Below are positions 1,597 through 25,684 of a stretch of 31,905 nucleotides of DNA, one piece after another. Source of the stretch: a virus. A model generated the notes under the pieces. The model ran no database searches, was not told where the DNA came from, and saw only the letters and a list, made by a program, of their open reading frames with translations. The position numbers and the translations under genes are program-made. The number at the start of each line of letters is the position of its first letter. The first letter of the stretch is position 1. Location of the stretch: positions 1 through 31,905 of the IMG/VR virus record IMGVR_UViG_3300050011_000089. One strand, 5' to 3'.

Positions 1597-1618
1597 TATT
1601 CCGCTGACCAGCGAATTA
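1597..1618. promoter_or_regulatory. Short imperfect dyad between methyltransferase and HTH genes
   Basis: The core CGCTG-AC-CAGCG (1602-1613) is a perfect 5+5 inverted repeat flanked by partly symmetric A/T bases. It fills the short gap between the methyltransferase stop and the HTH gene. It could be an operator for the adjacent HTH protein or an RNA hairpin. No T-tract follows it on the minus strand, so it is not an obvious terminator. Arms of this length can occur by chance. Confidence 0.25.
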
Positions 1619-2800
1619 TCGATCCGGCTCGTCGGGGCCAGCGATTGGCAAAAAGAGCGGCGCGACGGCCGCGATCCGGCGTTCCGCCAACGCCACATAC
1701 TCCGGATTGAGTTCAATACCGAGGAACTGGCGTTGCGCCTTCGCGCAGACGACGCCGACGGTCCCCGCGCCGGCGAAGGGATCGAGCACGGAATCGCCGG
1801 CAATGGACCCGGCCAGGATACAGGGCTCGACGAGCGCCTCGGGAAAGGTGGCGAAGTGCGCCTCGGGATAGGGCGACGTGGCGATCGACCAGACGCTCCG
1901 CTTGTTCGCGCCTGCATATTCCGGCCTGGACTGCGCCTCTAGAATGCGGCGTTTAACATCGCTCGGATTTTGCGCGCCGACGGCCTCATAATCTTTCGTA
2001 GCCTGCCCGCGATATTTCGGCAAGGGGTAAGCGCCGGAATGTTCTCCCGCCTTCGTTCCCTTTGGCTGGTTTTCCGTGTGCGCCCAACTGCCCCCACTCG
2101 TCTCGTCCCAGATTCGAACATACGGCTCGCGGATCGCCGCCGCGTCGTAATAGTAGCGCGGGGATTTTGTCAGCAGGAACAAATACTCGTGCGCCTTCGT
2201 CGGCCGGTCCGTCACGCTCTCCGGCATCGGGTTCGGCTTCGCCCAGATGATGTCGCTCCGCAGATACCAGCCCGCCGCCTGCAGCGCGAAGGCCACGCGC
2301 CAGGGGATGCCGACGAGATCCTTCGGTTTGAGGCCAACTATTGATCGGTCATTGGGCCGTAGGCCGTGTCGCCTCGCAGGCTGTTTCGGATCGACCCCGT
2401 GCGCTTGTCCTTTCGCGCACTGGTAAGAATCGCCGAGGTTCAGCCAGACCGTCCCGTCGTCCCGCAGCACGCGCCAGACCTCCGCGAAGACGGCGACGAG
2501 GTTCGCCACGTACGCCTCAGGTGTCGGTTCTAGGCCGAGCTGCGCATCAATGCGTTGAGCGCCACAACGACAGTGACCGGCGTGGACGGAGACGGATCCC
2601 TTGTTCGATGCCTGTTTGGCCGTACCGGCAGCATTGGTCCTCGACTCGCTGCCAATGTGCGAGCATCCAGGATCGCCGCCGTCCCATCTTGCCGTCCCAT
2701 AATCCCGGAGCCCCCAATAGGGCGGCGACGTCACGACGCACTGGACCGAGGCGTCCGGGAGCGTCTGGAGCACGGTGCGCGCATCGCCGCAATGAATCAC
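1616..2800 (-). CDS. DNA methyltransferase, N4-cytosine/N6-adenine type, beta-class order
   Basis: This 394-residue protein should transfer a methyl group from S-adenosylmethionine to an exocyclic amino group in DNA. The catalytic motif TSPPYW is at residues 24-29 and the SAM-binding DPFAGAGT motif is near the C-terminus (340-347). Catalytic motif first and SAM motif last is the beta-class order. A Cys/His cluster (CSH near 46-48, CRC near 77-79) sits in an insertion after the catalytic motif and could bind zinc. The SPPY signature is common to N4-cytosine enzymes but does not prove the base. No restriction endonuclease lies beside it, so it is an orphan enzyme, probably protecting phage DNA from host restriction. 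It starts at ATG 2800 and diverges from the plus-strand pair. Confidence 0.93.
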   Translation of the reverse strand: MIHCGDARTVLQTLPDASVQCVVTSPPYWGLRDYGTARWDGGDPGCSHIGSESRTNAAGTAKQASNKGSVSVHAGHCRCGAQRIDAQLGLEPTPEAYVANLVAVFAEVWRVLRDDGTVWLNLGDSYQCAKGQAHGVDPKQPARRHGLRPNDRSIVGLKPKDLVGIPWRVAFALQAAGWYLRSDIIWAKPNPMPESVTDRPTKAHEYLFLLTKSPRYYYDAAAIREPYVRIWDETSGGSWAHTENQPKGTKAGEHSGAYPLPKYRGQATKDYEAVGAQNPSDVKRRILEAQSRPEYAGANKRSVWSIATSPYPEAHFATFPEALVEPCILAGSIAGDSVLDPFAGAGTVGVVCAKAQRQFLGIELNPEYVALAERRIAAVAPLFLPIAGPDEPDR

Positions 2801-4485: not shown

Positions 4486-4854
4486 TTAACGCTCCTTTGG
4501 TGCAATCGGGGCGGATTGGTCCGCCGCCGTGTAAGGGGTGACCGTCGGGGCGGCCACCGATCCGCGGACCCGGTATTTCCACGCCACGTTGGGGGCGGTC
4601 TCTGCGAGCGCATGCTCGACTTGCGAGATCCGCGGCTCGAACTGTTCGACTTTGCCGAGCCGGAGTTCCATGTCGGTGTCGTGCTGCTCGTGTGCGCCGA
4701 GGGCCTGGCCGATCTTCCCGATGCCGACGATGGCACCGATGATCATGCCGCAGATCGTCAACGCCCCGACGACGACGCCAATCGCGGCGGTCGGATTACT
4801 CTCGCGCCGATAAGTATCAGGCTGCCGCGCTGGAAGCCTTTCGTTCGAAGGCAT
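4486..4854 (-). CDS. Small membrane protein with coiled coil, holin/accessory lysis candidate
   Basis: This 122-residue protein has a charged N-terminus and one strong hydrophobic segment at about residues 24-46 (AIGVVVGALTICGMIIGAIVGIG). An amphipathic, probably coiled-coil region follows (EQHDTDMELRLGKVEQF onward), then a Pro/Ala-rich tail. The predicted topology is a short cytoplasmic N-terminus with the coiled coil on the other side, or the reverse. Its ATG overlaps the stop of the glycosidase-like gene (TGATG). The region resembles small phage membrane proteins near endolysins, but a holin versus virion-associated role cannot be decided from sequence. Confidence 0.7.
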   Translation of the reverse strand: MPSNERLPARQPDTYRRESNPTAAIGVVVGALTICGMIIGAIVGIGKIGQALGAHEQHDTDMELRLGKVEQFEPRISQVEHALAETAPNVAWKYRVRGSVAAPTVTPYTAADQSAPIAPKER

Positions 4855-8931: not shown

Positions 8932-9471
8932 CTAGGGCGTCCCTTCAAAACTGGTGACGGGGGGCACGACCGGCTGGGGCGTGACGGCGCGCGCGAGCAG
9001 CGTGGCGTTCATATTCTCGGAAACCGGATCGGCCCGTTCGCCGTTCTCGATCACGAGCGTGGCGACGGTTGGGTTGCCTTGGGTGACGTCGCCCGGCCAC
9101 CAATTGCGGGTCGCCATCGCGGCTCGACTCAAGAGGACCTGCTCGGCCAGATCCCAATCCGTCGGGGGCGGCAGGTTCTGATAGATCGCCCCGCACTCGA
9201 AGCAGCAGGCGAGTTGCCAGTCCGGGTCATAGGCCGGCGCGTTCCCACAGGCATCGCAGACCACCTTCCAGCACCCACCGCTGATGACGGCACCGCTGGC
9301 GGGCGGCGCATCCGAGACGAAGGGGTCGCGCCAAGCCAGCCAGGGCCGGGCGGCTTGCATCCCGCGAATGAACGCCGCTTGCGCCGCGCGATAGACTTCG
9401 GGCGTCGAGACGCCGTGCGCCTCGAGCGGGCGACCAATGCGCGCGTAGGGCGTCCATTGACTCAGTGGCAT
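8932..9471 (-). CDS. Tail-region zinc-ribbon protein, 179 aa
   Basis: The start is the ATG at 9471, five bases after the stop of the minor tail gene. An earlier in-frame start would overlap that gene. The N-terminal part is aromatic-rich (QWTPYARIGRPLEAHGV). The centre carries a likely zinc ribbon, CDACGNAPAYDPDWQLACCF then ECG, with two CxxC pairs plus an extra Cys. The C-terminus is Val/Pro-rich. No family is recognised. Its place among tail-tip genes suggests a structural or assembly role in the distal tail. Confidence 0.7.
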   Translation of the reverse strand: MPLSQWTPYARIGRPLEAHGVSTPEVYRAAQAAFIRGMQAARPWLAWRDPFVSDAPPASGAVISGGCWKVVCDACGNAPAYDPDWQLACCFECGAIYQNLPPPTDWDLAEQVLLSRAAMATRNWWPGDVTQGNPTVATLVIENGERADPVSENMNATLLARAVTPQPVVPPVTSFEGTP

Positions 9472-14714: not shown

Positions 14715-15893
14715 TTAGCCCTGGCCGAGAATCAATTCGTCGTTGCCGGACGTCTCCATACAGACGCCCTTGAACGACCAGATCGGCACATCGTCCGGGT
14801 CCGGCGTCGTCGGCACGTCCCACTCGACGTTCGGCGCATGGAAGAGCCAGATCTTGCCCGTCGCCGTGCCAGCCTGAATCGTCAGCTGTTTGGCCGTCGG
14901 AACCGATCCGCTCTGCGGGTCGGCGAAGGCGTAGAGCAAGGTCTGGTCCTCGACGCGACAGTCGAGCGTGCAGGTCACCACGCGGCGCTTGTCTCGATAC
15001 GCTTCGGTGGCGAGCGGCGAGTTCTGGAAGTCCTCGTTCCGTACGATGAAGGCGTTCGAGACCTGGAAAGTCGCTTTGAGCGCCTTGACCGCCACGCCAG
15101 AGATGAGCACGCTCTGGACCTGAAACCCGGTCGGAATCGTCGTCCCGACCGTGGTGAAGCCCGCCGGTTGCGTCGGCGCCGGCCGGATCTGCTGCTGGGC
15201 GGGCCCGCTCGCGTTCCACTTGATTTCCTGCATCCCGTCGAGCAGGAAGTTCATCTTGTCGACCGCGCAGCCGGCCAGCTGGCGCATGAAGACGGTGCCG
15301 AGGTAATGGCCCCAGGTGACCGTCTTCACGAGGTCGGTCGTGAAATTGTACGTGACGCAACCCTTCACCACGTCGCTGGTATTCGGCGCGGATGGGAGGG
15401 CGGGGAGCCAGGTCGTGACGCCCGTGCCGGTGTTCACCGTCGCAATCACCACCATGAACGTGCCGGGCGTCGATCCGGTCGAGATGATCTCGAGCGTATC
15501 GCCGATTTGGAGGCCCGTCGCCGAGGTCAAGGTCGCGCCGGCCGTGGTCGGGCTGCTGGCGACCGTCGTCGAGAGCGCCACCGCGCGCTCGCTCCCGAAA
15601 CCGTTTTTCAGCAGGACCGACGCTTCCGGCTTCGTCTGGACCGTGCCGCTCGGGATCAGGTAACTGTCCTTGAGCGCCCAGCTCGCCTTCGCGCGCCGGC
15701 TGTACCGATCGAGGGTGCCGGGCGTGGCCTTCTTTTCGGCCGAGGCCACCCGGGCGAACGGGTCCCAGCTCAGGTCGAGATTCAAATGGCGATAGGCGTT
15801 CGTCACCACCTGCGGTGTGAGCACCGTGCCGAAGGCGGACTCCTCAGAGACGTAGGCTTGGCCTTTTCGGCCGACGGAGGCAGCAAGGGACAT
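14715..15893 (-). CDS. Major tail tube protein
   Basis: This 392-residue protein should polymerise into the tail tube. The N-terminus (GQAYVSEESAFGTVLTPQ) and the motif LKDSYLIPSGTVQTKPEAS are typical of siphovirus tube proteins. VTWGHYLGTVFMRQLAGCAVDKMNF is another family-like block, quoted here as key positions around residues 192-217. An inserted beta-rich domain at about residues 113-179 (TSATGLQIGDTLEI to TSDVV) resembles a domain in the connector gene at 17343. The ribosome site is AAGGAGAT. It lies immediately before the 161-bp gap and the chaperone, the usual order. The insert is probably exposed on the tube surface, which is inference. Confidence 0.85.
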   Translation of the reverse strand: MSLAASVGRKGQAYVSEESAFGTVLTPQVVTNAYRHLNLDLSWDPFARVASAEKKATPGTLDRYSRRAKASWALKDSYLIPSGTVQTKPEASVLLKNGFGSERAVALSTTVASSPTTAGATLTSATGLQIGDTLEIISTGSTPGTFMVVIATVNTGTGVTTWLPALPSAPNTSDVVKGCVTYNFTTDLVKTVTWGHYLGTVFMRQLAGCAVDKMNFLLDGMQEIKWNASGPAQQQIRPAPTQPAGFTTVGTTIPTGFQVQSVLISGVAVKALKATFQVSNAFIVRNEDFQNSPLATEAYRDKRRVVTCTLDCRVEDQTLLYAFADPQSGSVPTAKQLTIQAGTATGKIWLFHAPNVEWDVPTTPDPDDVPIWSFKGVCMETSGNDELILGQG

Positions 15894-16705: not shown

Positions 16706-17346
16706 CCATTCCCATTCACCGCCGCCGCGGCCCGGCTGCCGGCGTCCTGGAGGTCGGTCGTGATTTGGTCGCGCTGCTCGTCGAGCGTGGCCTGCATGTA
16801 GGACCGCGCCGGCAGCACGACGCTCGGCTTGAGCGCGAAGAGCGGCACGAGGTCGCCCGCGGCCGATCCGCGCGTGGCGGCTTTGCGCGCGCCGGCGACG
16901 ACGCCGAAAATGACGCCCTTGGCGATGAAGGTCGAGCTGAACCCGAAGCCGCTCGGGTCGGCCTTGACCTCGGCGGCACTGAACCGCGGCACGCCGTTCC
17001 CGGTGAGCGCGGCGGCCAGCGGAATCGCCAGCGCCGAGCCATGCGTCGGGCGAATCTCGCCCCCGAGTTCCTGGATGCGGCCGTAGATCGCTTTGTCGCT
17101 GTCCTGGGTGACCCGGACCTCGAGGGAGTGGTCCATCTCCTGCGCGGTGATCATGTAGCCGATGGATCGGCCCAAGGTGCCCGTACGGTAGCCGAGCGTC
17201 TCGCCGCGCAACCGCGCCATCACGCGGGATTGCAGGCGCAGGCCGATGGTCCGCATGGTGTCCAGAAAGGTCTGGAAGACGATCGGCTGGGCCCCGTCAA
17301 GATGGGCCGTCACCGCCGGCAGCGTGGTCGAAATCTCGAAGCTCAC
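16702..17346 (-). CDS. HK97 gp10-like head-tail / minor structural protein, 214 aa
   Basis: The GTG at 17346 overlaps the stop of the connector gene (GTGA), which fixes the start. The protein has the gp10-like pattern: an N-terminal helix (FLDTMRTIGLRLQSRVMARL), the Tyr/Gly/Arg segment YRTGTLGRSIGY (key residues TGxLxxSI), and YGRIQELGGEI followed by alanine-rich helices. LPARSYMQATLDEQRDQI at about residues 180-197 matches the C-terminal block RSYM...L typical of the family. It helps attach head and tail or complete the tail. Confidence 0.8.
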   Translation of the reverse strand: MSFEISTTLPAVTAHLDGAQPIVFQTFLDTMRTIGLRLQSRVMARLRGETLGYRTGTLGRSIGYMITAQEMDHSLEVRVTQDSDKAIYGRIQELGGEIRPTHGSALAIPLAAALTGNGVPRFSAAEVKADPSGFGFSSTFIAKGVIFGVVAGARKAATRGSAAGDLVPLFALKPSVVLPARSYMQATLDEQRDQITTDLQDAGSRAAAAVNGNG

Positions 17347-18149
17347 AGCAGCCCCCGGGTATCGACGAAGGCGGCGAGCTGCATCTTCAGCGTGTCGGGC
17401 AAGCCCGGCCGGATGGACGTGCCGAACGGGCCGGCGCTCAGGCTGGCGATCGTCAGCGTCCCATTCTGCACGCGGTCCCAGATCACTTTCATCAAGTCCA
17501 GTCCAAGGGCGAGATAGGCCTGCCCCTTGATCGTGCCTTCGAGCGCCGTCGTATAGACCACCTGGCAGTTCCCGATGCCCCACCGGAAGCAGCTCGTCTT
17601 CAGGTAGAGCACGCCGAAGTCCGGGTCGGTCCAGTAATCGCTCGCCGTCAAGAGCGTCGGCTGGTCATCAATCTGGACCGTCACGACGCTCGCCACCGGC
17701 CGGTACTTCAGCTTCCGAAAGACATCGCCCTTGCCGCTGAACGTGTCGGTGATCGTGCGCGCGTGATAGATCCGATTCGTCAGCGACTCGAGCCAGGCCG
17801 ACACGCCGTCGATGATCACGACCGCGTCAGCATCAAAGTTCGCATCGGCGACGACATCGCCCGTCTTCGGCGCTTCCGGCAGCGGCGGCGTCCAGGTGAG
17901 GGCCCCGGCCGCGTTCGTCAGCAGCCCGACCAGATAGGTGCCCGCGTTGGCCGGCACCGTGGGCGTGCCGAGCGTGATGGCGATCGACCGTCCGATCTGG
18001 AGCCCGGTGCCGGTCCCCGTGACCGTCGCCCCGGAGACGCCCGGGGCCGGCGAGGCCTGCACCGTCTGCTGGCTCGGCGTCGTCTGCCGGCACCACGTCC
18101 GAAAGGTCGGCAGGTCGCAAAGGCTCGTGCTCTGGGGGACGGCGTTCAT
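17343..18149 (-). CDS. Head-tail connector (adaptor-like) protein with inserted beta domain
   Basis: This 268-residue protein contains adaptor-like segments after residue 105 (DGVSAWLESLTNRIYHAR, then LKYRPVASVVTVQIDD and ASDYWTDPDFGVLYLK), as in gp6-type connectors that bind below the portal. At about residues 40-101 it carries a beta-rich domain (TGTGLQIGRSIAITLGTP to KTGDVV). That domain aligns by eye with one in the tail tube protein. The C-terminus is helical and may form the oligomer interface (AYLALGLDLMKVIWDRVQ). It is coupled by GTGA to the gp10-like gene. Confidence 0.72.
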   Translation of the reverse strand: MNAVPQSTSLCDLPTFRTWCRQTTPSQQTVQASPAPGVSGATVTGTGTGLQIGRSIAITLGTPTVPANAGTYLVGLLTNAAGALTWTPPLPEAPKTGDVVADANFDADAVVIIDGVSAWLESLTNRIYHARTITDTFSGKGDVFRKLKYRPVASVVTVQIDDQPTLLTASDYWTDPDFGVLYLKTSCFRWGIGNCQVVYTTALEGTIKGQAYLALGLDLMKVIWDRVQNGTLTIASLSAGPFGTSIRPGLPDTLKMQLAAFVDTRGLL

Positions 18150-18158
18150 CGCCGGCCC

Positions 18159-19106
18159 TTACTGCTCAAACGCCGTGCAATCGACGTTGGTGATCGTGGC
18201 GGTGCCGCCGGTGACGTCGGCCACTTGCAGATCAAACCAGATCGCGGTGCTCACCACCAGGCCGGTCACCGAAGCGATGATCGAAAGGCTCGTCGCTTCG
18301 TTGGCGACCTGCTGGGTCATCACCTGGGTCGCGCTGATGATCGTCCCCTGGGCCGCGTCGGTATTGTTCGGCGCCGAACCCGTGCCGTAGGCCAGGGCCG
18401 TCTTCACGCCGTCGGCGATCGTACCGTTCACCTGGTTCCCGGTGATCATCAGCACCACGCGTCCGGTATTCGTCGGCGTGATCGCGCACGCCAGCCCGTT
18501 CATCTTCAGCGTGCTCGTGCCGTTGCCGGTTTTGTTCGTCGGATTCGAATGGGTGAAGGCGTTCGTCTTGTAGGCGGGCAGCGTGCTCGTGCCCTGCGAC
18601 ATCAGGTACTGGCCCGTCGCCGCCGCCGTGATCACGCCGCCCACGCTCGCGGCGGTGGCCGCCATGATGTCGCCCTGGACCAGCGTGTTCGGTAGCGTCA
18701 GCGTGGAGCAGCCCGGGTCCGCGCCGGTCGCGCCGCGTACGTAGGTGCCGGTGCCGCAGACCGCCAGCGCCGTCGGGCTGCTCGCGGCGGCGCCCACGTA
18801 GAGCGCATGGGCGGTCAGCGTTTGTAATCCCGTGCCGCCCTGCCCGACGGGCAGGCCGGCGGCGAGATGGGTCGCCGTCACCTGCTGCGAGGTATTGATG
18901 TCGGTGCCGGTCTGCGCGATCGTCGAATTGACGTAGGCACTCGTGATCGTCGTGCACGTCGTCCCGCTCGCGGCAAGGGCGGTCACCACCTGGTTCGTAC
19001 AGCTGGCGAAAATCTCCCCCACCGGCGGCAGCGAAATCTGGCCGATCTGGGCCTGCGCAGGCACCGCCAGCAGCAGGAACGCAAGGACAAGAAGGAGGCG
19101 TTTCAT
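18159..19106 (-). CDS. Signal-peptide protein with fibre-like repeats, 315 aa
   Basis: The ATG at 19106 starts a textbook Sec signal (MKRLLLVLAFLLLAVPAQAQ), cleavable after AQA. An upstream in-frame start would hide it inside the preceding gene. The mature part begins like tail-fibre stalks (VGQGGTGLQTLTAHALYVG, TGQYLMSQGTSTLPAYKT), a Gly/Thr-rich repetitive beta pattern common in phage fibres. A beta-sandwich-like C-terminal part follows. It has six cysteines, an even number. A fibre-like protein with an export signal inside the head gene block is unusual. It might be secreted to the periplasm, or the N-terminus may be a membrane anchor. Confidence 0.75.
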   Translation of the reverse strand: MKRLLLVLAFLLLAVPAQAQIGQISLPPVGEIFASCTNQVVTALAASGTTCTTITSAYVNSTIAQTGTDINTSQQVTATHLAAGLPVGQGGTGLQTLTAHALYVGAAASSPTALAVCGTGTYVRGATGADPGCSTLTLPNTLVQGDIMAATAASVGGVITAAATGQYLMSQGTSTLPAYKTNAFTHSNPTNKTGNGTSTLKMNGLACAITPTNTGRVVLMITGNQVNGTIADGVKTALAYGTGSAPNNTDAAQGTIISATQVMTQQVANEATSLSIIASVTGLVVSTAIWFDLQVADVTGGTATITNVDCTAFEQ

Positions 19107-19111
19107 GGGGG

Positions 19112-19513
19112 TCAGTGAGAACAGGTGACGGGAATCGTGGCCGTGCCCGTGGCCGCAATCACCAGGAAACCGACGGCCGCGCCGTAGCTCTCGAGCGTGA
19201 AACTCTGCCCGACCTGGAAGAGGTGCCCGGTGCTCGAGGTCGGCACGGTGCCATCGAGCCAGATCCGGACGTTGTTTCCCTCGATCGGGCCGACGAGGCA
19301 CCCTTGAATCTTCCCGACACCGGCGGGGCTCAGGTCGGCGGCGCTCAAGCCGAGGGCGGTCGAGCTCACCGAGAGCGTGTCATGCGAGACCGGCTGGAAG
19401 GCGGCGGTCGTCCGGACCGGCGCCTGCGCGAGCATCGTGGCCTTCGGCATCAGCAGCGCCAAGGACACAAACAGGCCCACCGCGCCCGCCACCATCATCC
19501 GTTCGATCTTCAT
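19112..19513 (-). CDS. Signal-peptide protein, 133 aa
   Basis: A good AGGAG site precedes the ATG at 19513. The N-terminus (MKIERMMVAGAVGLFVSLAL then LMPKATMLAQA) is a likely signal peptide with AxA-type cleavage near residue 31. The remainder is a small beta-rich domain ending in GTATIPVTC, with two cysteines (QGC and VTC) that could pair. No family is recognised. It lies between two other genes, one of them also a signal-peptide gene, in the head module. Confidence 0.68.
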   Translation of the reverse strand: MKIERMMVAGAVGLFVSLALLMPKATMLAQAPVRTTAAFQPVSHDTLSVSSTALGLSAADLSPAGVGKIQGCLVGPIEGNNVRIWLDGTVPTSSTGHLFQVGQSFTLESYGAAVGFLVIAATGTATIPVTCSH

Positions 19514-19528
19514 GCTGGACTCCTGTGG

Positions 19529-19798
19529 TTATTTCTTCGTCCGCTTCGCCCGCTGGGCCGACTGAAACCGGTTCCCGCCATTGGGCGCCGCCTCTGCGAG
19601 GGGCCCGGCCACGGTGCCACGTTCCCGGAGGCCGATCGCCGCGCCGACCGCTTTCGGCAGGGCCACGACGCCGTCCTCGATCAGGTAGTGCTGGCCCTCA
19701 TGGGTCAGCGTCCCGTTCGCCAGGGGATGCTGGAAATGGACCAGATCCGGTTCGGTGGCGTCTTCCGCCCGCGCGTCGTCGTTCTCGTCGTTGAACAT
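19529..19798 (-). CDS. Small head-region protein, 89 aa
   Basis: The GGGAG ribosome site precedes the ATG at 19798. The acidic N-terminus (MFNDENDDARAEDATEPD) is followed by a compact beta section (LVHFQHPLANGTLTHEGQHY, LIEDGVVALPKAVGAAIG), then a flexible Pro/Gly region and a basic tail (RAKRTKK). The middle resembles small phage head proteins in which a short beta domain precedes a charged tail. It may be an assembly factor or capsid-associated protein. Unlike its neighbours it has no signal peptide and no cysteine. Confidence 0.65.
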   Translation of the reverse strand: MFNDENDDARAEDATEPDLVHFQHPLANGTLTHEGQHYLIEDGVVALPKAVGAAIGLRERGTVAGPLAEAAPNGGNRFQSAQRAKRTKK

Positions 19799-19807
19799 GG
19801 CGCTCCC

Positions 19808-20443
19808 TTACTTGATCGTGATCCCAGGGTCGGAGGCGACCAGGTCCGCCACCACGATCGCGCGGTGATTGGTCGCCAGACAGGCGTTATTCGAGATCGT
19901 TAGCTGAATCGTAAAGGTATCCGCCGCGCCCGTGCTGCCCGCCACGCTCGAGGCCCCCGACGTCAGGACGGCGGTACAGCCGCTCGCCACATGCGCCTCG
20001 GCCACCAGCGCCGCCGTGGAGGTCGAGACCACCGCCAGCGTGCCGCTCGTGCGGGTAACCGTGACAATCTCGAGCAGCGACTTCGTGCTCTCAAACGGAT
20101 TCACCGATCCGCCGGCCCCCAGCGATCCCATGATCTTGACTTCGATGATGGCGGACCCGTTGAAGGCCGCCGGCACCGTCACAGTGATCGCGTCGGTCGC
20201 CGTGTTTTCGGCGATGCCGGTCAGGGTCTTGACGAGCCGCTTCGTGGTCGTGCAGAGCCAGCCGCCGGTGGCGGGGTTGCGATCCACGTAGGGCGTCGTA
20301 CTGCCGGGATTGCAGACGGCGGGCTGCCGGGTCGCAATCGGCACATCGCTCTGCGCGCGCACCGGCGGCGGCCCTACGCTGGCCGCCATGAGGGCGATCG
20401 AGGCGATCAGGAGAACGCGCGTGCGGTGGGTCAGTGTCGGCAT
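19808..20443 (-). CDS. Signal-peptide protein, 211 aa, beta-rich
   Basis: The N-terminus has a basic start (MPTLTHRTR), a hydrophobic core (VLLIASIALMAASVG) and a probable AxA-type cleavage at VRA|QS (near residue 30). The mature part is beta-rich (DAITVTVPAAFNGSAIIEVK, LLEIVTVTRTSGTLAVVSTS, AADTFTIQLTISNNACL) and has four cysteines. The fold looks like a jelly-roll or Ig-like sandwich, which is inference. It is the first gene downstream of the capsid gene, across a 112-nt gap with a hairpin. An exported product in this place is unexpected for a virion protein. Confidence 0.7.
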   Translation of the reverse strand: MPTLTHRTRVLLIASIALMAASVGPPPVRAQSDVPIATRQPAVCNPGSTTPYVDRNPATGGWLCTTTKRLVKTLTGIAENTATDAITVTVPAAFNGSAIIEVKIMGSLGAGGSVNPFESTKSLLEIVTVTRTSGTLAVVSTSTAALVAEAHVASGCTAVLTSGASSVAGSTGAADTFTIQLTISNNACLATNHRAIVVADLVASDPGITIK

Positions 20444-20555: not shown

Positions 20556-21950
20556 TTACGCCGAGGTCTTCGCGGAGCAGTTCCGAAGGACCCACGCGCC
20601 GCCGGGGAACTTCGGCCGCAGGCACTCGCGGCAGAAGACTTCGAAGTCGTACCGGCGCGCGGTCAGCGCGTAGTCGACCTGTTGGTAGTCCCGGCTCGTC
20701 TCGATGTCGATCCCGACCATGTCGCCGCCGGTCGGGAACGGGATCGTGTTCGAGTACGCCAGCATCGTCCCGCTCGGGAGATACGGGTGGACCCGGACGT
20801 TCTGGAGCCGGCCGGTGGACTTGTTGACGTATTTCGCCAACATGTAGCCGCCGGTCAGTTGCGCCATCTCGTCGGAGGCCGCCTGCACGAAGAGGGTCGG
20901 GGCGCCGTTGGCCGCGAGCACCAGATTCGTCGCCCGCATCAGCTGGGTCGAGTTCATCCAGATGTTCTCGGGATTGGCCTTCGCCGCGTCCCAGACCGCC
21001 TTGTTCGCCGCGTCGATGTTGTCGAGCGTGAAGTCGGTTCCGACGCCATCCGATCCGGCCGCCAGGGTCGTGACGCTGGCGCCGAGCGCCGCGGTGAAGT
21101 TCACGATGAGCCCGTTCATGCCCAGCGTGTTCGCCACGTTGTCGGCCGGCACGGCGATGTCTGTCGTGGTCAGCGCCGTCAGCGCCACGCTGTTGATGCC
21201 GGTGGTCGCCTGGCGGGTCGAGGTGCCCGAGGCGCCGTCATCGACGTACCACTCGTAGGCGATGGCCCCTTCCACCCAGGCCGTGTGGCCGGTCATCGAC
21301 CCGCTCGGGCCCGTGATGGCCGACTGGGTCGTGGCCGAGGACTTCTTGCCGCGGGTCCGCGTCCCATCGCCGAGGCCCGTGATGGCCCGGGCGATCATCT
21401 TGTAGGTGCCGGTCGCAATCGATCCGCCGCTGTTCGAGACCGTGCAGGTGGGCGCCGTGACGCTGCCGAGGTCGGCAATGCGGCCGAAGCCGATCGCTTG
21501 CTCCTCCATCTGCATCAGGGCGAACAGGAGATTCGTGACGCCGCGCGCCTTGAGGTCGCCCTCGAAGCCCATCGAGGCGTCCTGGGCCGCCCAGGTCACC
21601 GAGTCGCCGAGGCCCATTTCCGCGAAGGCCGCGGTGAAGGGCGTGGCACTGTAATTGATCTTGTTCGCCTTCGCCCCTTCGGACGTGACGAACGGATCGG
21701 TCGCGCCGGTCACGAGCGCCGAAATCGAGCGCCATTCGCTCGAGGTGCCCCCGCGCTTGTTCTGGACACGCGGAATGTTGTTGCGCCAGGGGGTGATCGT
21801 CGACGCCAAGAGGATCGCCAGCGGCTGGAGATCGTAGGCGTTGAACCCGCTGCCGGTCGTCAGGTCCTTCTCGATGCTGGTCGGCCCGGCTTTCATAATC
21901 TCCTGGGCCTTTTTGATGGCCGCTTCGGAGACGTCCTGCAGATTGATCAT
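20556..21950 (-). CDS. Major capsid protein, HK97-fold type with inserted domain
   Basis: This 464-residue protein follows the protease/scaffold gene and has a strong GAGGAG ribosome site. The N-terminal region (DVSEAAIKKAQEIMKAG onward) and the segments TPFTAAFAEMGLGDSVTWAA, ANPENIWMNSTQLM and VRVHPYLPSGTMLAYSNTIP fit an HK97-like capsid subunit of the XkdG-type group. TSRDYQQVDYALTARRYDFE near the C-terminus is typical. An insertion at about residues 165-260 (TGTYKMIARAITGLGDG to AYEWYVDDGASGTS) looks like an FN3/Ig-like domain that would face outward. CRECLRPKFPGG near the end has two Cys. Confidence 0.88.
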   Translation of the reverse strand: MINLQDVSEAAIKKAQEIMKAGPTSIEKDLTTGSGFNAYDLQPLAILLASTITPWRNNIPRVQNKRGGTSSEWRSISALVTGATDPFVTSEGAKANKINYSATPFTAAFAEMGLGDSVTWAAQDASMGFEGDLKARGVTNLLFALMQMEEQAIGFGRIADLGSVTAPTCTVSNSGGSIATGTYKMIARAITGLGDGTRTRGKKSSATTQSAITGPSGSMTGHTAWVEGAIAYEWYVDDGASGTSTRQATTGINSVALTALTTTDIAVPADNVANTLGMNGLIVNFTAALGASVTTLAAGSDGVGTDFTLDNIDAANKAVWDAAKANPENIWMNSTQLMRATNLVLAANGAPTLFVQAASDEMAQLTGGYMLAKYVNKSTGRLQNVRVHPYLPSGTMLAYSNTIPFPTGGDMVGIDIETSRDYQQVDYALTARRYDFEVFCRECLRPKFPGGAWVLRNCSAKTSA

Positions 21951-21983: not shown

Positions 21984-23930
21984 TTAGCTCTTGCCGATCG
22001 GACGTCCCGTCACGGGGTCCATGCGGCCGATGCCGCGTTGACGCATATAGGTGAGTCGCTTCGCGGCGTAGTCCGCTTTCTCCTGCGGGGTCGTGGCCGC
22101 CAGCGCCAGGGTGTCGATGGCCTTGAGGTATTCGTCCTCTCCGGCCGCGACCGCCGATTGGTCCTGCTCGCCGCCGCCCTCGACGCCGCCGATGGTCTTC
22201 TGGACCGCCGTCGCCGTCGCGCGCGTCATCGGGCCGCCGGGGCGGGGGCTCTTGGCGAACTTCTCGACCGTCGCCTGCAGGTCCGCGATCGTTGCCGCCT
22301 GCGCGGTCATCGTCGCCTGGACACTGTCGACTTGGGTCTTCGAGGCCTCGAGCGCCTTCGTCACGTCGCCGATGAGCGCCTTGAGTGCTTTCACGTCCTC
22401 GCCGTCCGTCGTCTCGCCGGGTGCCGGCGGGTCGGTCTTGACCTCGCCGCCCTTGGTGCCTTCCGCCGCGTGGGATGCGTTGCGCGCAGCGATTTCCGCC
22501 GGAGTCAAGCCGTCATCGCCAGTCGGGGGATCGTCGTCCCCGGTGCCCTTGGCGACCTTCTCCTCGTCGTCCTTGCCATCGCAGTCGGCACCGAGGCCTT
22601 TGGCATCGTCGTGGATCGACTGGACCTTCTCGAGGTCGCCCTTCGAATGACGGGCGCCAGCCTTCGTCACGCTCTTTTCGGTGGCGCAGCTGCCGCCCAA
22701 GGCGTGCGCGGTGTCGTGAATCGATTGGACCTTTTTCAGGTCCTCGGCGGAATGCCGGGCGCCAGCCTTGGAGATGCCGGTGGCCGACAACAGCGTCTTG
22801 AGCCGTTTCGAGAAGACCTGGACGCGGGTGCGCCGGCCGCGCTGGCATTTGGCGACCATCTCGATCGCCGCTGGCGTGCCGGCCTCGGGTTCCGCGTCGT
22901 CCTCCTCGCCGTCCTCGAATTGGGCCTCGAACTCGCTCGTGATGAACTCGAGCAGCAGCTGGAAGGCCAATCGGAGGGCCTGGACTTCGGCCGCTTCCGG
23001 GCTGTCGGTGTCGCCCGCCGCCGCATCCTGATTCGCTTCCCAGGCTTCATTCGCCAGCAGCATCTCGAGCGCCGCCATAATCTGCAGCGCCTGGGCGAGG
23101 TCGTACGGCTCCGCACGGACCGCCTTGAGAATGGCGGCCAAGCTGCCGGTCACGAGCTTCTCGGCGGTCTGGTCTTCCTTCTTTTTCCAGTCCTCCGGGA
23201 GCGCCTTCACGAAGCTGTCGCCCTTGCGATAGGCGATGGCGATGATCTTCCGTTTCACGAGGTCGCGCGCGGCCTGGCTGGTCTTCACTTCGCCGACGGC
23301 ATGGGCCGCCGCCGTGATGTCCTCCGGCTTTTTGATGGGAAAACTCTGATGCGGCCCCGCGAAGTCCTCCGCCGGAATCGTGTCGCGCATCTTGTCGCTG
23401 ATCTCGCGCTTGGCGACCGGCGCGTCGTCCTCGGCGGCCAGCGCCTTCACGATGTCGAAATCGGCATCGGGGCACGCGCCGTTGTCGACCACCGAGGTCT
23501 CGAAGAGCTTTTTCATCAGCACCCGGAAGCAGTCGACGCCGTTGGCCTTGGCGGCGATCCGTTCGCCGGGCCCGGCAATCGAGAACATACTGAGGGTGCC
23601 GTCTTGAATCTTGAGCCAGGTGTCCTCGGCGCCCTTGGAAATCTGCGCCTCGAGGATGATGCGGCGGTTCACGTCATCGAACTCGACATCGACGCGCTTG
23701 CCGACCGCCTTGGTCTTGTCGTGCATTTCCCGGATGTTGCCCTTCCAGGTCTGCACCGCCGCCTTCGCGGCGTCGTAATCGACGATGTCGCCCTGCTGGT
23801 CGAGCACCTCGGAGGTCATCACCCCGCGGATGGTTCGCGTCTCGGCATCCTTTTTTTCGATCGGGAAGAACAGCGTCTTGATGACGTCGCCGAGGGGCGC
23901 CTTGGCTGCCGGGGGCGTGACCGTCTTCAT
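21984..23930 (-). CDS. XkdF-like prohead protease fused to scaffold-like C-terminal region
   Basis: The 648-residue protein opens with an XkdF-type phage serine protease domain: RTIRGVMTSEVLDQQGDIVD (residues 32-51), NIREMHD with the presumed catalytic His70, and GTLSMFSIAG with the presumed nucleophile Ser117. Residues 177-240 (ISDKMRDTIPAEDFAGPHQS and onward to IIAIAYRKG) match a domain often appended in such phage proteins. Helical and acidic linkers follow, then two near-identical GARHS...IHD repeats (388-450). A C-terminal Gln/Ala-rich coiled coil (QVDSVQATMTAQAATIADLQ) looks like a scaffold. No separate scaffold gene is present, so this protein probably supplies both functions and is cleaved during capsid maturation. 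Confidence 0.82.
   Translation of the reverse strand: MKTVTPPAAKAPLGDVIKTLFFPIEKKDAETRTIRGVMTSEVLDQQGDIVDYDAAKAAVQTWKGNIREMHDKTKAVGKRVDVEFDDVNRRIILEAQISKGAEDTWLKIQDGTLSMFSIAGPGERIAAKANGVDCFRVLMKKLFETSVVDNGACPDADFDIVKALAAEDDAPVAKREISDKMRDTIPAEDFAGPHQSFPIKKPEDITAAAHAVGEVKTSQAARDLVKRKIIAIAYRKGDSFVKALPEDWKKKEDQTAEKLVTGSLAAILKAVRAEPYDLAQALQIMAALEMLLANEAWEANQDAAAGDTDSPEAAEVQALRLAFQLLLEFITSEFEAQFEDGEEDDAEPEAGTPAAIEMVAKCQRGRRTRVQVFSKRLKTLLSATGISKAGARHSAEDLKKVQSIHDTAHALGGSCATEKSVTKAGARHSKGDLEKVQSIHDDAKGLGADCDGKDDEEKVAKGTGDDDPPTGDDGLTPAEIAARNASHAAEGTKGGEVKTDPPAPGETTDGEDVKALKALIGDVTKALEASKTQVDSVQATMTAQAATIADLQATVEKFAKSPRPGGPMTRATATAVQKTIGGVEGGGEQDQSAVAAGEDEYLKAIDTLALAATTPQEKADYAAKRLTYMRQRGIGRMDPVTGRPIGKS
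22581..22769 (-). repeat. Two tandem GARHS-IHD protein repeats in the protease fusion
   Basis: The first unit has KAGARHSAEDLKKVQSIHD and the second KAGARHSKGDLEKVQSIHD. Each is followed by an A-L-G/G-L-G segment and one Cys. The unit is about 35 residues (105 bp). The strong identity points to a duplication within the gene. The same motif occurs, from memory, in other phage protease/scaffold proteins. Confidence 0.75.
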
Positions 23931-23951: not shown

Positions 23952-24560
23952 TTAGCTCTCGTCGCTCGCGGCGCGGTCGTCGAGATGCGGCGCAAAGTTC
24001 CGCGTGCAGTCCGGATGCTCGAGCGGATTCTCGAGCGCCTCCTCGACCGACCAAGTCTCCCCATTCGCGTCCGCGCACTTCTCGTCGTCATCGCCATCCT
24101 CGACGTCGACGTCGTTGACGTCGTTTGCCTTATAGCCGAGGACGTTGCCGTGGTTGTACGCGATGCCGGTCTCGGTGCGCGCGATACGGTCCGCCCGCCA
24201 CCGGGAGTACCCCTCGAACTGGTCGCGGACGACATCGAGGACCTTGGTGCCCAGGGCGAATGAGGAATGGGCACCGCCGTCCTCGAAGGTGTGTCGGATC
24301 AGCGTGGCGACCCGATCACGGGTGACGTCGTTCAGTTGGACAATGCGTTCGCCGACATAGCTTGTGAGGAAGTCTGAGATAAAGGGGTCAGTAATGTCAA
24401 AAGTTCCCCCGACTTCTGTGGCACCTAGGTCGCCCGCAATCGTCACGAGATCGCGGTTGATTTGCTCGAAGCCGTCATCAGCGAATTTCTCGCCCCAGGC
24501 TTTCCACGGGAACGATTGCATCCGGGCGATCAAGGCGGCCGATCCGGTCTGGTCCGGCAT
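23952..24560 (-). CDS. MuF-like head morphogenesis protein, 202 aa
   Basis: The ATG at 24560 overlaps the stop of the repeat protein (TGATG) and is chosen over an upstream frame inside that gene. The C-terminal half has the Mu gpF/SPP1 gp7 signature: WRADRIARTETGIAYNHGNV (residues 121-140) and NPLEHPDCTRNFAPHLD (178-194), with a single Cys where many relatives have HPNCRC. An acidic stretch (VNDVDVEDGDDDE) precedes it. The N-terminal half is helical. The family links to portal and capsid and is thought to help DNA packaging or ejection. It is short for the family, which often exceeds 250 residues. Confidence 0.82.
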   Translation of the reverse strand: MPDQTGSAALIARMQSFPWKAWGEKFADDGFEQINRDLVTIAGDLGATEVGGTFDITDPFISDFLTSYVGERIVQLNDVTRDRVATLIRHTFEDGGAHSSFALGTKVLDVVRDQFEGYSRWRADRIARTETGIAYNHGNVLGYKANDVNDVDVEDGDDDEKCADANGETWSVEEALENPLEHPDCTRNFAPHLDDRAASDES

Positions 24561-25684
24561 CAGGCGGCCTCGTCCAGGAGCAGCGCGATGATGGCCTCGA
24601 CATCTTCGTGGCACCCAGCGGCGCGGACCGTGGCCGGGGCCAGGGGTGCCGTGGCGCCGTGGCCGTGATGCGCGACCGCCCCGTGGCCGGCGGCGGCAAC
24701 GGACCGGCTGGCGACGGCCGCGCTGGCCGTCGTGAGCGCGCCGGGCGCGCGTCCCGCCGCCTGCAGCGGGCCGATCCGGCTGCGGCCCTGACCGCCGAAG
24801 ATCCGGGGAAGGACGACGACCGGGGCATCGACGGCGGTGGGGGCTGGCGTCTCGCGGACGCGCGGCTCAGGCTCGGCCTGGACGAACCACCAGGCCGGCG
24901 CGCCGCCGCCGGTCCGGCGCTTGAGGGCCGTGCGCTGTCCAGTGCCCGCCGCCTGGATCGCCGCGCAGCGGGCCGCGCCGGTGCCGGTGACATCGCCGGC
25001 GGCGGCCGTATGGCCGGTGCCCGCGGCCTGGGCGCTCGGCACGGTGGCGGCGCCCGTACTGGTGAAACGTTCGACGCCGGCACCGGCGGCCCGGACGGGC
25101 GCCGACATCGCCGCAGCGGTCGAGAGGAATCGCTCAAGGCCCGCCCCGCTGGCGGTGGCCTTACCGAGGGTCGCGGCGCCGGCCCCGACGAAGACCTCCG
25201 CGCCAGAGGTCCCGGTGCCCGAGGCATGGGCCGGGGCGGTCGTGACGGCACCAGCGGCGGCTACGAACCGCTCAACGCCGGCCCCCGCCGCCGCCATTTT
25301 ACCGGTGGTGGCGGCTCCGGTGGCGGCGATGAACTTGAGCAGCGCCGCCGCCGCGGCGGCCATCTTGCCCGTGGTCGCCGCCCCGCTGGCGGCCCGGAAG
25401 GTCTCAAGACCCGCGCCGGCCGCGCTCGGGTGCCCGAGGGTGGGGGCGCCCGTGGCCGCGACAAACTGCTGCAGGCCAGACCCGGTGGCGCTCGCGGCGT
25501 GGAGCGCGGCGGCGGCCGTCGCGGCGACAAACGTCTGCAGGCCGACGCCGCTCCCGCTCGTGATGGCCGCGGCCGTCGTGGCCGCCCCCGATCCGGTCAC
25601 GCCGGTAGATCGACGAACGGTTGGATCGGAAAGGGTAATATCGGAGGGATTCGCCGCGCCGGGATAGAGGAAAAAATCCGGCAT
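24560..25684 (-). CDS. Ala/Gly-rich protein of about eight 22-residue repeats, 374 aa
   Basis: It is coupled on both sides by TGATG overlaps. After a 40-residue start (MPDFFLYPGAANPSDITLSD...) come repeats with the core GxG(L/V)xxF(x)AxxGAATTGKMAA (residues 45 to about 220). The third and fourth copies are nearly identical. A Pro/Arg-rich section with WWFVQAEPEPRVRETPAP follows, then another Ala/His-rich part (AAAGHGAVAHHGHGATAPLA) and an acidic helical end. Repeats of GSG-AATx type are known in virion-associated proteins of environmental phages and may form beta-solenoid fibres. This is inference. No enzymatic motif is seen. Confidence 0.75.
   Translation of the reverse strand: MPDFFLYPGAANPSDITLSDPTVRRSTGVTGSGAATTAAAITSGSGVGLQTFVAATAAAALHAASATGSGLQQFVAATGAPTLGHPSAAGAGLETFRAASGAATTGKMAAAAAALLKFIAATGAATTGKMAAAGAGVERFVAAAGAVTTAPAHASGTGTSGAEVFVGAGAATLGKATASGAGLERFLSTAAAMSAPVRAAGAGVERFTSTGAATVPSAQAAGTGHTAAAGDVTGTGAARCAAIQAAGTGQRTALKRRTGGGAPAWWFVQAEPEPRVRETPAPTAVDAPVVVLPRIFGGQGRSRIGPLQAAGRAPGALTTASAAVASRSVAAAGHGAVAHHGHGATAPLAPATVRAAGCHEDVEAIIALLLDEAA
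25025..25552 (-). repeat. 66-bp imperfect tandem repeats encoding 22-residue units
   Basis: About eight copies are visible in the translation, each beginning with G-x-G-(L/V) and an aromatic two or three residues later, and usually containing GAATTGK or a variant. Copies of residues 90-111 and 112-133 share ten of the last eleven residues. The periodicity is strict in the middle and degenerates at both ends, as expected for repeat expansion and decay. Confidence 0.7.

Follow-up and report, generated by a model that had tools for sequence, protein, structure and literature searches.

The window, by which we mean the whole 31,905-nt stretch of DNA analyzed, from an IMG/VR virus record, carries on its minus strand a run of genes in the order maturation protease, major capsid protein, D, C, B, A and head-tail adaptor (Table 1). 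The family matched by the capsid protein has no assigned function, and the protein aligns with those annotated as major capsid proteins in Arthrobacter phages Sonali and Mufasa8. The start of A was placed at the ATG at 19106, replacing a longer open reading frame with a GTG start at 19301. Intergenic gaps measure 112 nt between the capsid gene and D, 9 nt between D and C, 15 nt between C and B, 5 nt between B and A, and 9 nt between A and the adaptor gene. The GC content of the stretch from D to A is 0.67, and both its GC and its GC3 resemble those of the flanking head genes. A scan for sigma-70 types found no promoter within it, and terminator-like sites occur at chance level only. Together, the short gaps, the matching composition and the lack of a detected promoter suggest that D, B and A are genes of the late head operon. 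A separately controlled moron or lysogenic conversion gene is not supported: the sigma-70 scan gave no promoter, terminator-like sites do not exceed chance, and the gaps are 5-15 nt. An assembly chimera was rejected because the composition matches the flanks and the cassette encloses the resident gene C. PADLOC and NCBIfam searches returned no match, and the Pfam labels LbR_Ice_bind, Cupredoxin_1 and DUF2574 were discarded as below threshold.

Table 1. Genes and N-terminal segments of the capsid-connector region (window positions).
Feature	Position	Strand	Basis
Maturation protease / scaffold-type protein	21984..23930	-	phrog_9427, E 2.1e-23; Pfam Peptidase_S78_2 over cut-off
Major capsid protein	20556..21950	-	phrog_13692, E 4.1e-71
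D, 211 aa: Sec-type signal, two-cysteine hairpin, fibre/tailspike-like beta domain	19808..20443	-	
Signal sequence of D, residues 1-30, predicted cut VRA/QSD	20354..20443	-	sequence and rule score
C, 89 aa: no signal, no cysteine; small resident gene of the capsid-connector interval	19529..19798	-	
B, 133 aa: signal or N-terminal anchor, beta-type domain	19112..19513	-	
Signal or anchor of B, residues 1-31	19421..19513	-	sequence; lowest score of the three
A, 315 aa: Sec-type signal, two close cysteine pairs, one GGTG fibre motif, fibre C-terminal domain	18159..19106	-	
Signal sequence of A, residues 1-19, predicted cut AQA/QIG	19050..19106	-	sequence and rule score
Head-tail adaptor (connector), closing the interval	17343..18149	-	phrog_442, E 3.7e-11

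Elsewhere in the window, a phage DNA methyltransferase is encoded at 1616-2800 (minus strand; phrog_67, E = 1.7e-76). The head module also holds, at 24560-25684 (minus strand), a 374-aa Ala/Gly-rich protein with degenerate repeats of about 35 residues (GSGLQTFVAATA... and GAGVERFVAAAGA...), for which PHROG and Pfam gave no match. Residues 35-113 of the head-tail adaptor are 39% identical to part of a 392-aa tail-type protein encoded downstream at 14715-15893 (minus strand), the two structural genes apparently having one domain in common.

The earlier note had proposed Sec-type signals on three of the four products encoded between capsid and connector, and such signals are indeed present on D, B and A, with none on C. 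They were scored using a home-made rule that asks for a positive n-region, a 9-residue uncharged core with a mean hydropathy of at least 2, and an AxA-like site. D begins with MPTLTHRTRVLLIASIALMAASVGPPPVRA/QSD and A with MKRLLLVLAFLLLAVPAQA/QIG (the slash marks the predicted cut), and by this rule both have the features of Sec and signal peptidase I substrates, that is a basic n-region, a hydrophobic h-region and an AxA-type site. B begins with MKIERMMVAGAVGLFVSLALLMPKATMLAQA/PVR; its sole AxA site (AQA) is followed by proline, and cleavage there is doubtful. The rule selects 4 of the 32 genes in the window, the fourth being a small membrane protein at 4486-4854. Among controls, it selects one of 56 annotated structural-module coding sequences, 3.2% of shuffled N-termini and 7 of 109 non-coding open reading frames. 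Set against these background rates, the scoring of three out of four adjacent genes is not background. The lone scoring control (L023:6283-6642, in phage MW202577) has a weak signal and no cysteines, and it lies directly after the relative of B described below, near the major head gene. Shine-Dalgarno-like sites stand immediately 5′ of the signal ATG in B (AGGAG) and in two of the contigs introduced below (L011 and L016). The first cysteines, at residue 44 of D, 72 of B and 36 of A, are far from the cut sites; since none of the three has a lipobox cysteine at the cleavage site, lipoprotein signals, and with them an exclusion lipoprotein of the T5 Llp type, were rejected. Judged from these N-termini, export of D, B and A is likely.

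The cysteine counts claimed before (six in A, two in B, four in D) were confirmed. Even numbers in three proteins would arise by chance once in eight cases and on their own mean little. The suggestion that the cysteines fit disulfide bonds gained strength from a comparison of signal-bearing proteins with signal-less proteins that have related domains. The mature parts of ten signal-bearing proteins contain 39 cysteines in 2726 residues (1.43%), with an even number in nine of the ten, versus 23 in 5350 residues (0.43%) for eleven signal-less proteins, that is a roughly threefold density. Because this sample is small, includes related proteins and was put together post hoc, the associated P values (Fisher, 4e-6; Mann-Whitney, 3e-4) are descriptive only. 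The remaining structural genes of the window average 0.73% cysteine. In the tail region, a signal-less protein of 179 aa (8932-9471, minus strand) has six cysteines (3.35%), the highest density of any window gene other than D, B and A.

Relatives were obtained with a capsid profile and a three-row profile of D; single-sequence scans of viral contigs with D, A and B, as well as several searches of phage collections, found none. Searching with the capsid gave complete matches in two related viral contigs, as well as one contig from a metagenome-assembled genome. Capsid identity to the window is 71% in L002, 61% in L003 and 56% in L011. In L002 and L011, a relative of D lies 3′ of the capsid gene (37% and 35% identity, respectively; 33-37% overall), and both relatives keep an obvious signal and the hairpin C...PYxxxN...WxC. 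The connector gene directly follows the D relative in L011. L003 has a C-type gene alone at this locus, and relatives of C occupy the same place in L003 (2827-3090) and L011 (8481-8711). More distant relatives (L014, L015 and the isolates Sonali, THSA-485A and Strzyga) carry one or two small genes there. This pattern of presence and absence suggests that D is a variable insertion next to a resident small gene, with signal and hairpin kept wherever D occurs. Such conservation of the signal was seen for D only, B and A having no relatives at the same locus.

The C-terminal domain of D was also found in six further contigs (L016, L017, L018, L019, L020 and L022; L016 and L017 are almost identical), each time in a protein that sits among structural genes such as those for portal, major head protein or fibre, and each time without a signal. 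The possibility that homologues lack the signal, raised beforehand as an argument against export, thus does not apply to the two full-length relatives at the same locus and does apply to the domain relatives elsewhere. A signal kept at the locus and absent from the domain relatives is the pattern expected from the fusion of a signal to a virion domain.

An AlphaFold model of D, built on an 8-row alignment, has a mean pLDDT of 73.5, with most of the C-terminal domain at 85-93. Its best structural matches are phage chains: T4 gp9 (Z 10.1, rmsd 3.7, 115 residues aligned), the gp49 tailspike of phage Fri1 (Z 9.4, rmsd 3.0, 114 residues aligned) and five more at Z 8.1-8.9. The top Foldseek match is the AM24 tailspike (E = 2.5e-4). 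As modelled, residues ~61-211 of D share their fold with the beta domains of phage fibres, spikes and baseplates, a similarity that is not proof of homology.

Residues 40-127 of B are 33% identical to UOF78916 of phage MW202577, a signal-less protein of 95 aa encoded after the major head gene (phrog_267) with a single annotated 29-aa open reading frame between them. This relative of B thus has the position expected of a decoration protein, that is a small gene beside the major capsid gene. B itself matches no entry of PHROG, Pfam or NCBIfam and no curated decoration family, and gave a poor structure model (mean pLDDT 43). The last 130 residues of A match the terminal part of a collagen-like fibre of 1937 aa, encoded by a 642-kb phage, at 33% identity (E = 2e-8); a two-row profile of this C-terminus found no relatives among viral contigs. 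The earlier description of A as having fibre-like GTG repeats therefore holds for its fibre-like character, the C-terminus being that of a fibre, and is overstated for the repeats, as A contains one canonical GGTG motif (LPVGQGGTGLQTLTAHALYVG) and two scattered GTG triplets.

Signal-bearing proteins in structural modules recur in two further capsid families, both unrelated to that of the window. The contig L016, whose capsid belongs to another family (phrog_1005), encodes a signal-bearing protein of 142 aa with two cysteines shortly before a connector candidate (phrog_1732, function unknown). The same domain is found in Synechococcus phage S-SRP01, immediately upstream of the capsid gene and lacking a signal; in MW202554 (ctLwi270), a complete uncultured podovirus with a capsid of phrog_14242, it again carries one. 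Between the capsid assembly and capsid genes of S-SRP01 lies an RlpA-type protein with a hydrophobic start (L025:4565-4870), a further head-module gene whose product looks exported. The signal-bearing proteins of MW202554 include a 164-aa protein encoded after the capsid, a laminin-G-type lectin and an 846-aa protein that contains CxxxC pairs. Moreover, its Pfam Tail Collar protein (E = 1.7e-23) starts with a signal (MIVLVLLFLLLSISSADA/GTI), and between this gene and the phage stabilization gene upstream of it, start and stop overlap. The collar signal has no basic n-region and was missed by the rule and spotted by eye. Three contigs with related domains (L029, L030 and L031) have no signals in the genes examined, which indicates that the trait is lineage-specific.

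As for the host, one close relative of the capsid lies in a contig binned as Acidobacteria, and two genomes of the phylum contain weaker ones; these matches make a diderm host with a periplasm plausible. A search of the Acidobacteriota-type phylum for the collar domain gave mostly short tandem bacterial collar genes. Genomes L062 and L063 of this phylum encode proteins of 557 and 652 aa in which a clear signal is combined with a YQGRLTEAG module at the N-terminus and a Tail Collar domain. Secreted-looking proteins with fibre-type domains thus occur outside recognised phage modules as well.

The assembly of tailed phages is regarded as entirely cytoplasmic, and this makes export signals on surface-type proteins puzzling. 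The reading we favor, to which we give a probability of roughly 45%, is that D, B and A are Sec precursors of fibre or decoration type that are oxidized in the periplasm and docked on virions at lysis. They would be expressed late, alongside the capsid genes, as supported by their packing and orientation, and the N-terminal signals would carry them across the inner membrane. Signal peptidase I would trim the precursors, doubtfully so for B, and intramolecular disulfides, suggested by the cysteine enrichment, may lock the proteins in the periplasm. Lysis would then mix periplasm and cytoplasm, allowing the proteins to dock outside finished capsids or tails, and the payoff would be an oxidized, stabler outer layer on the free virion. 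In vitro, finished particles can accept decoration proteins and some tailspikes; a precedent for the docking of exported proteins at lysis was not found. In favor of this reading, the fold of D, the occurrence of the B core beside a head gene and the fibre end of A all represent virion-type domains, and like domains occur without signals in structural modules elsewhere. Against it stand the poor cut site of B and the secreted-looking Collar-domain proteins of some Acidobacteriota genomes, which imply that proteins pairing a fibre domain with a signal do not have to belong to the virion.

The signals and the fibre- or tailspike-like fold of D would also suit exported envelope factors whose receptor-binding-type domains mask receptors and block superinfection, or re-adsorption of progeny to debris, without ever joining the virion. 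Superinfection exclusion by exported phage proteins is of an established kind, as with Llp of T5. We nevertheless consider this explanation somewhat unlikely, since three different proteins, together with a collar protein at the normal tail-gene position in MW202554, exceed what masking needs, and since the core of B lies beside a capsid gene elsewhere and neither a lipobox nor a promoter of their own was found. The variety of folds per phage and the position of the collar gene favor a role in the virion over one in the envelope. With D resembling fibres and tailspikes, the B core next to a capsid gene elsewhere and A ending as a fibre, we prefer virion-type surface proteins with real Sec signals over a dedicated superinfection-exclusion factor.

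Virion proteins might also follow the usual cytoplasmic route, with the hydrophobic N-terminus serving as an anchor buried in the capsid or tail. Virion-type domains and the operon position fit such a location, and the proline that blocks the cleavage site makes it possible for B in particular. For the cassette as a whole it is unlikely: A and D have complete n-, h- and c-regions with good AxA sites, an enrichment in even-numbered cysteines has no reason in a reducing cytoplasm, and the domain relatives in virion modules do without such a segment. A further reading is that the three are captured host-type secreted proteins or morons that share fibre-type domains and alter the host rather than the virion. 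In its favor are the secreted-looking Collar-domain proteins of L062 and L063, and the late region of phage lambda does include exported genes (lom and bor). This origin is improbable, given a composition like that of the head genes, gaps of 5-15 nt, the D domain in the structural modules of all six other contigs and the lack of a match to the D profile in 396 genomes of the phylum, a search run without a positive control. That the hydrophobic ends arise from chance or wrong start codons, as might be allowed by a home-made rule that also accepts about 3% of shuffled N-termini, is very improbable in view of three scoring genes out of four adjacent ones, a signal kept in D relatives at 33-37% identity and the Shine-Dalgarno-like sites that directly precede the signal-bearing starts of B, L011 and L016.

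The domains and the signals are each known; the open-access literature searched yielded no case of the two combined in structural modules of several capsid families. That literature, a scope outside which most subscription journals lie, contained no report of signal peptides on the fibre or decoration proteins of tailed phages. A survey of phage DGR target proteins detected no signal peptides (PMC6199706), and a phage genome table lists them for two of 88 genes (PMC5735904). The general proposition that in several unrelated tailed-phage lineages fibre, collar and decoration proteins are Sec-exported, disulfide-bonded and added to the virion at lysis is put forward tentatively, being possible rather than probable. 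If true, it would amount to an undescribed two-compartment assembly route for the Caudoviricetes. Recurrence in unrelated capsid families, together with the cysteine enrichment, makes the assumption of wholly cytoplasmic assembly directly testable. Should the proteins become part of virions, there is a periplasmic branch to assembly; should they be absent from virions, phages use fibre-type domains as soluble envelope factors. For annotation, a signal peptide should not exclude a virion protein, nor should a virion domain imply cytoplasmic folding.

Several known systems share parts of this arrangement. Lom and Bor of lambda and Llp of T5 likewise carry export signals, some of them in late regions. 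They are, however, membrane proteins or lipoproteins that alter the cell, whereas the cassette proteins have no lipobox, contain virion-type domains and are interleaved with head genes. The tailspikes of Acinetobacter phages Fri1, AM24 and P1, gp42 of Klebsiella phage Kp9 and gp9 of T4 have the fold predicted for D (Z 8.1-10.1), at only 8-13% sequence identity. D lies in the head module and has a signal and a cysteine hairpin where those tailspike and fibre proteins have a tail-binding N-terminus. Capsid decoration and head fibre proteins are, like the cassette, encoded after the major capsid gene, as is the relative of the B core in MW202577. The cassette proteins differ from them in their signal sequences and in matching no curated decoration family. 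Another parallel is MW202554, in which UOF78508, UOF78515, UOF78518 and the 164-aa protein place Sec-type signals on fibre, lectin and tail-collar proteins with mostly even cysteine numbers, as in the window, in a phage with an unrelated capsid family and other beta domains.
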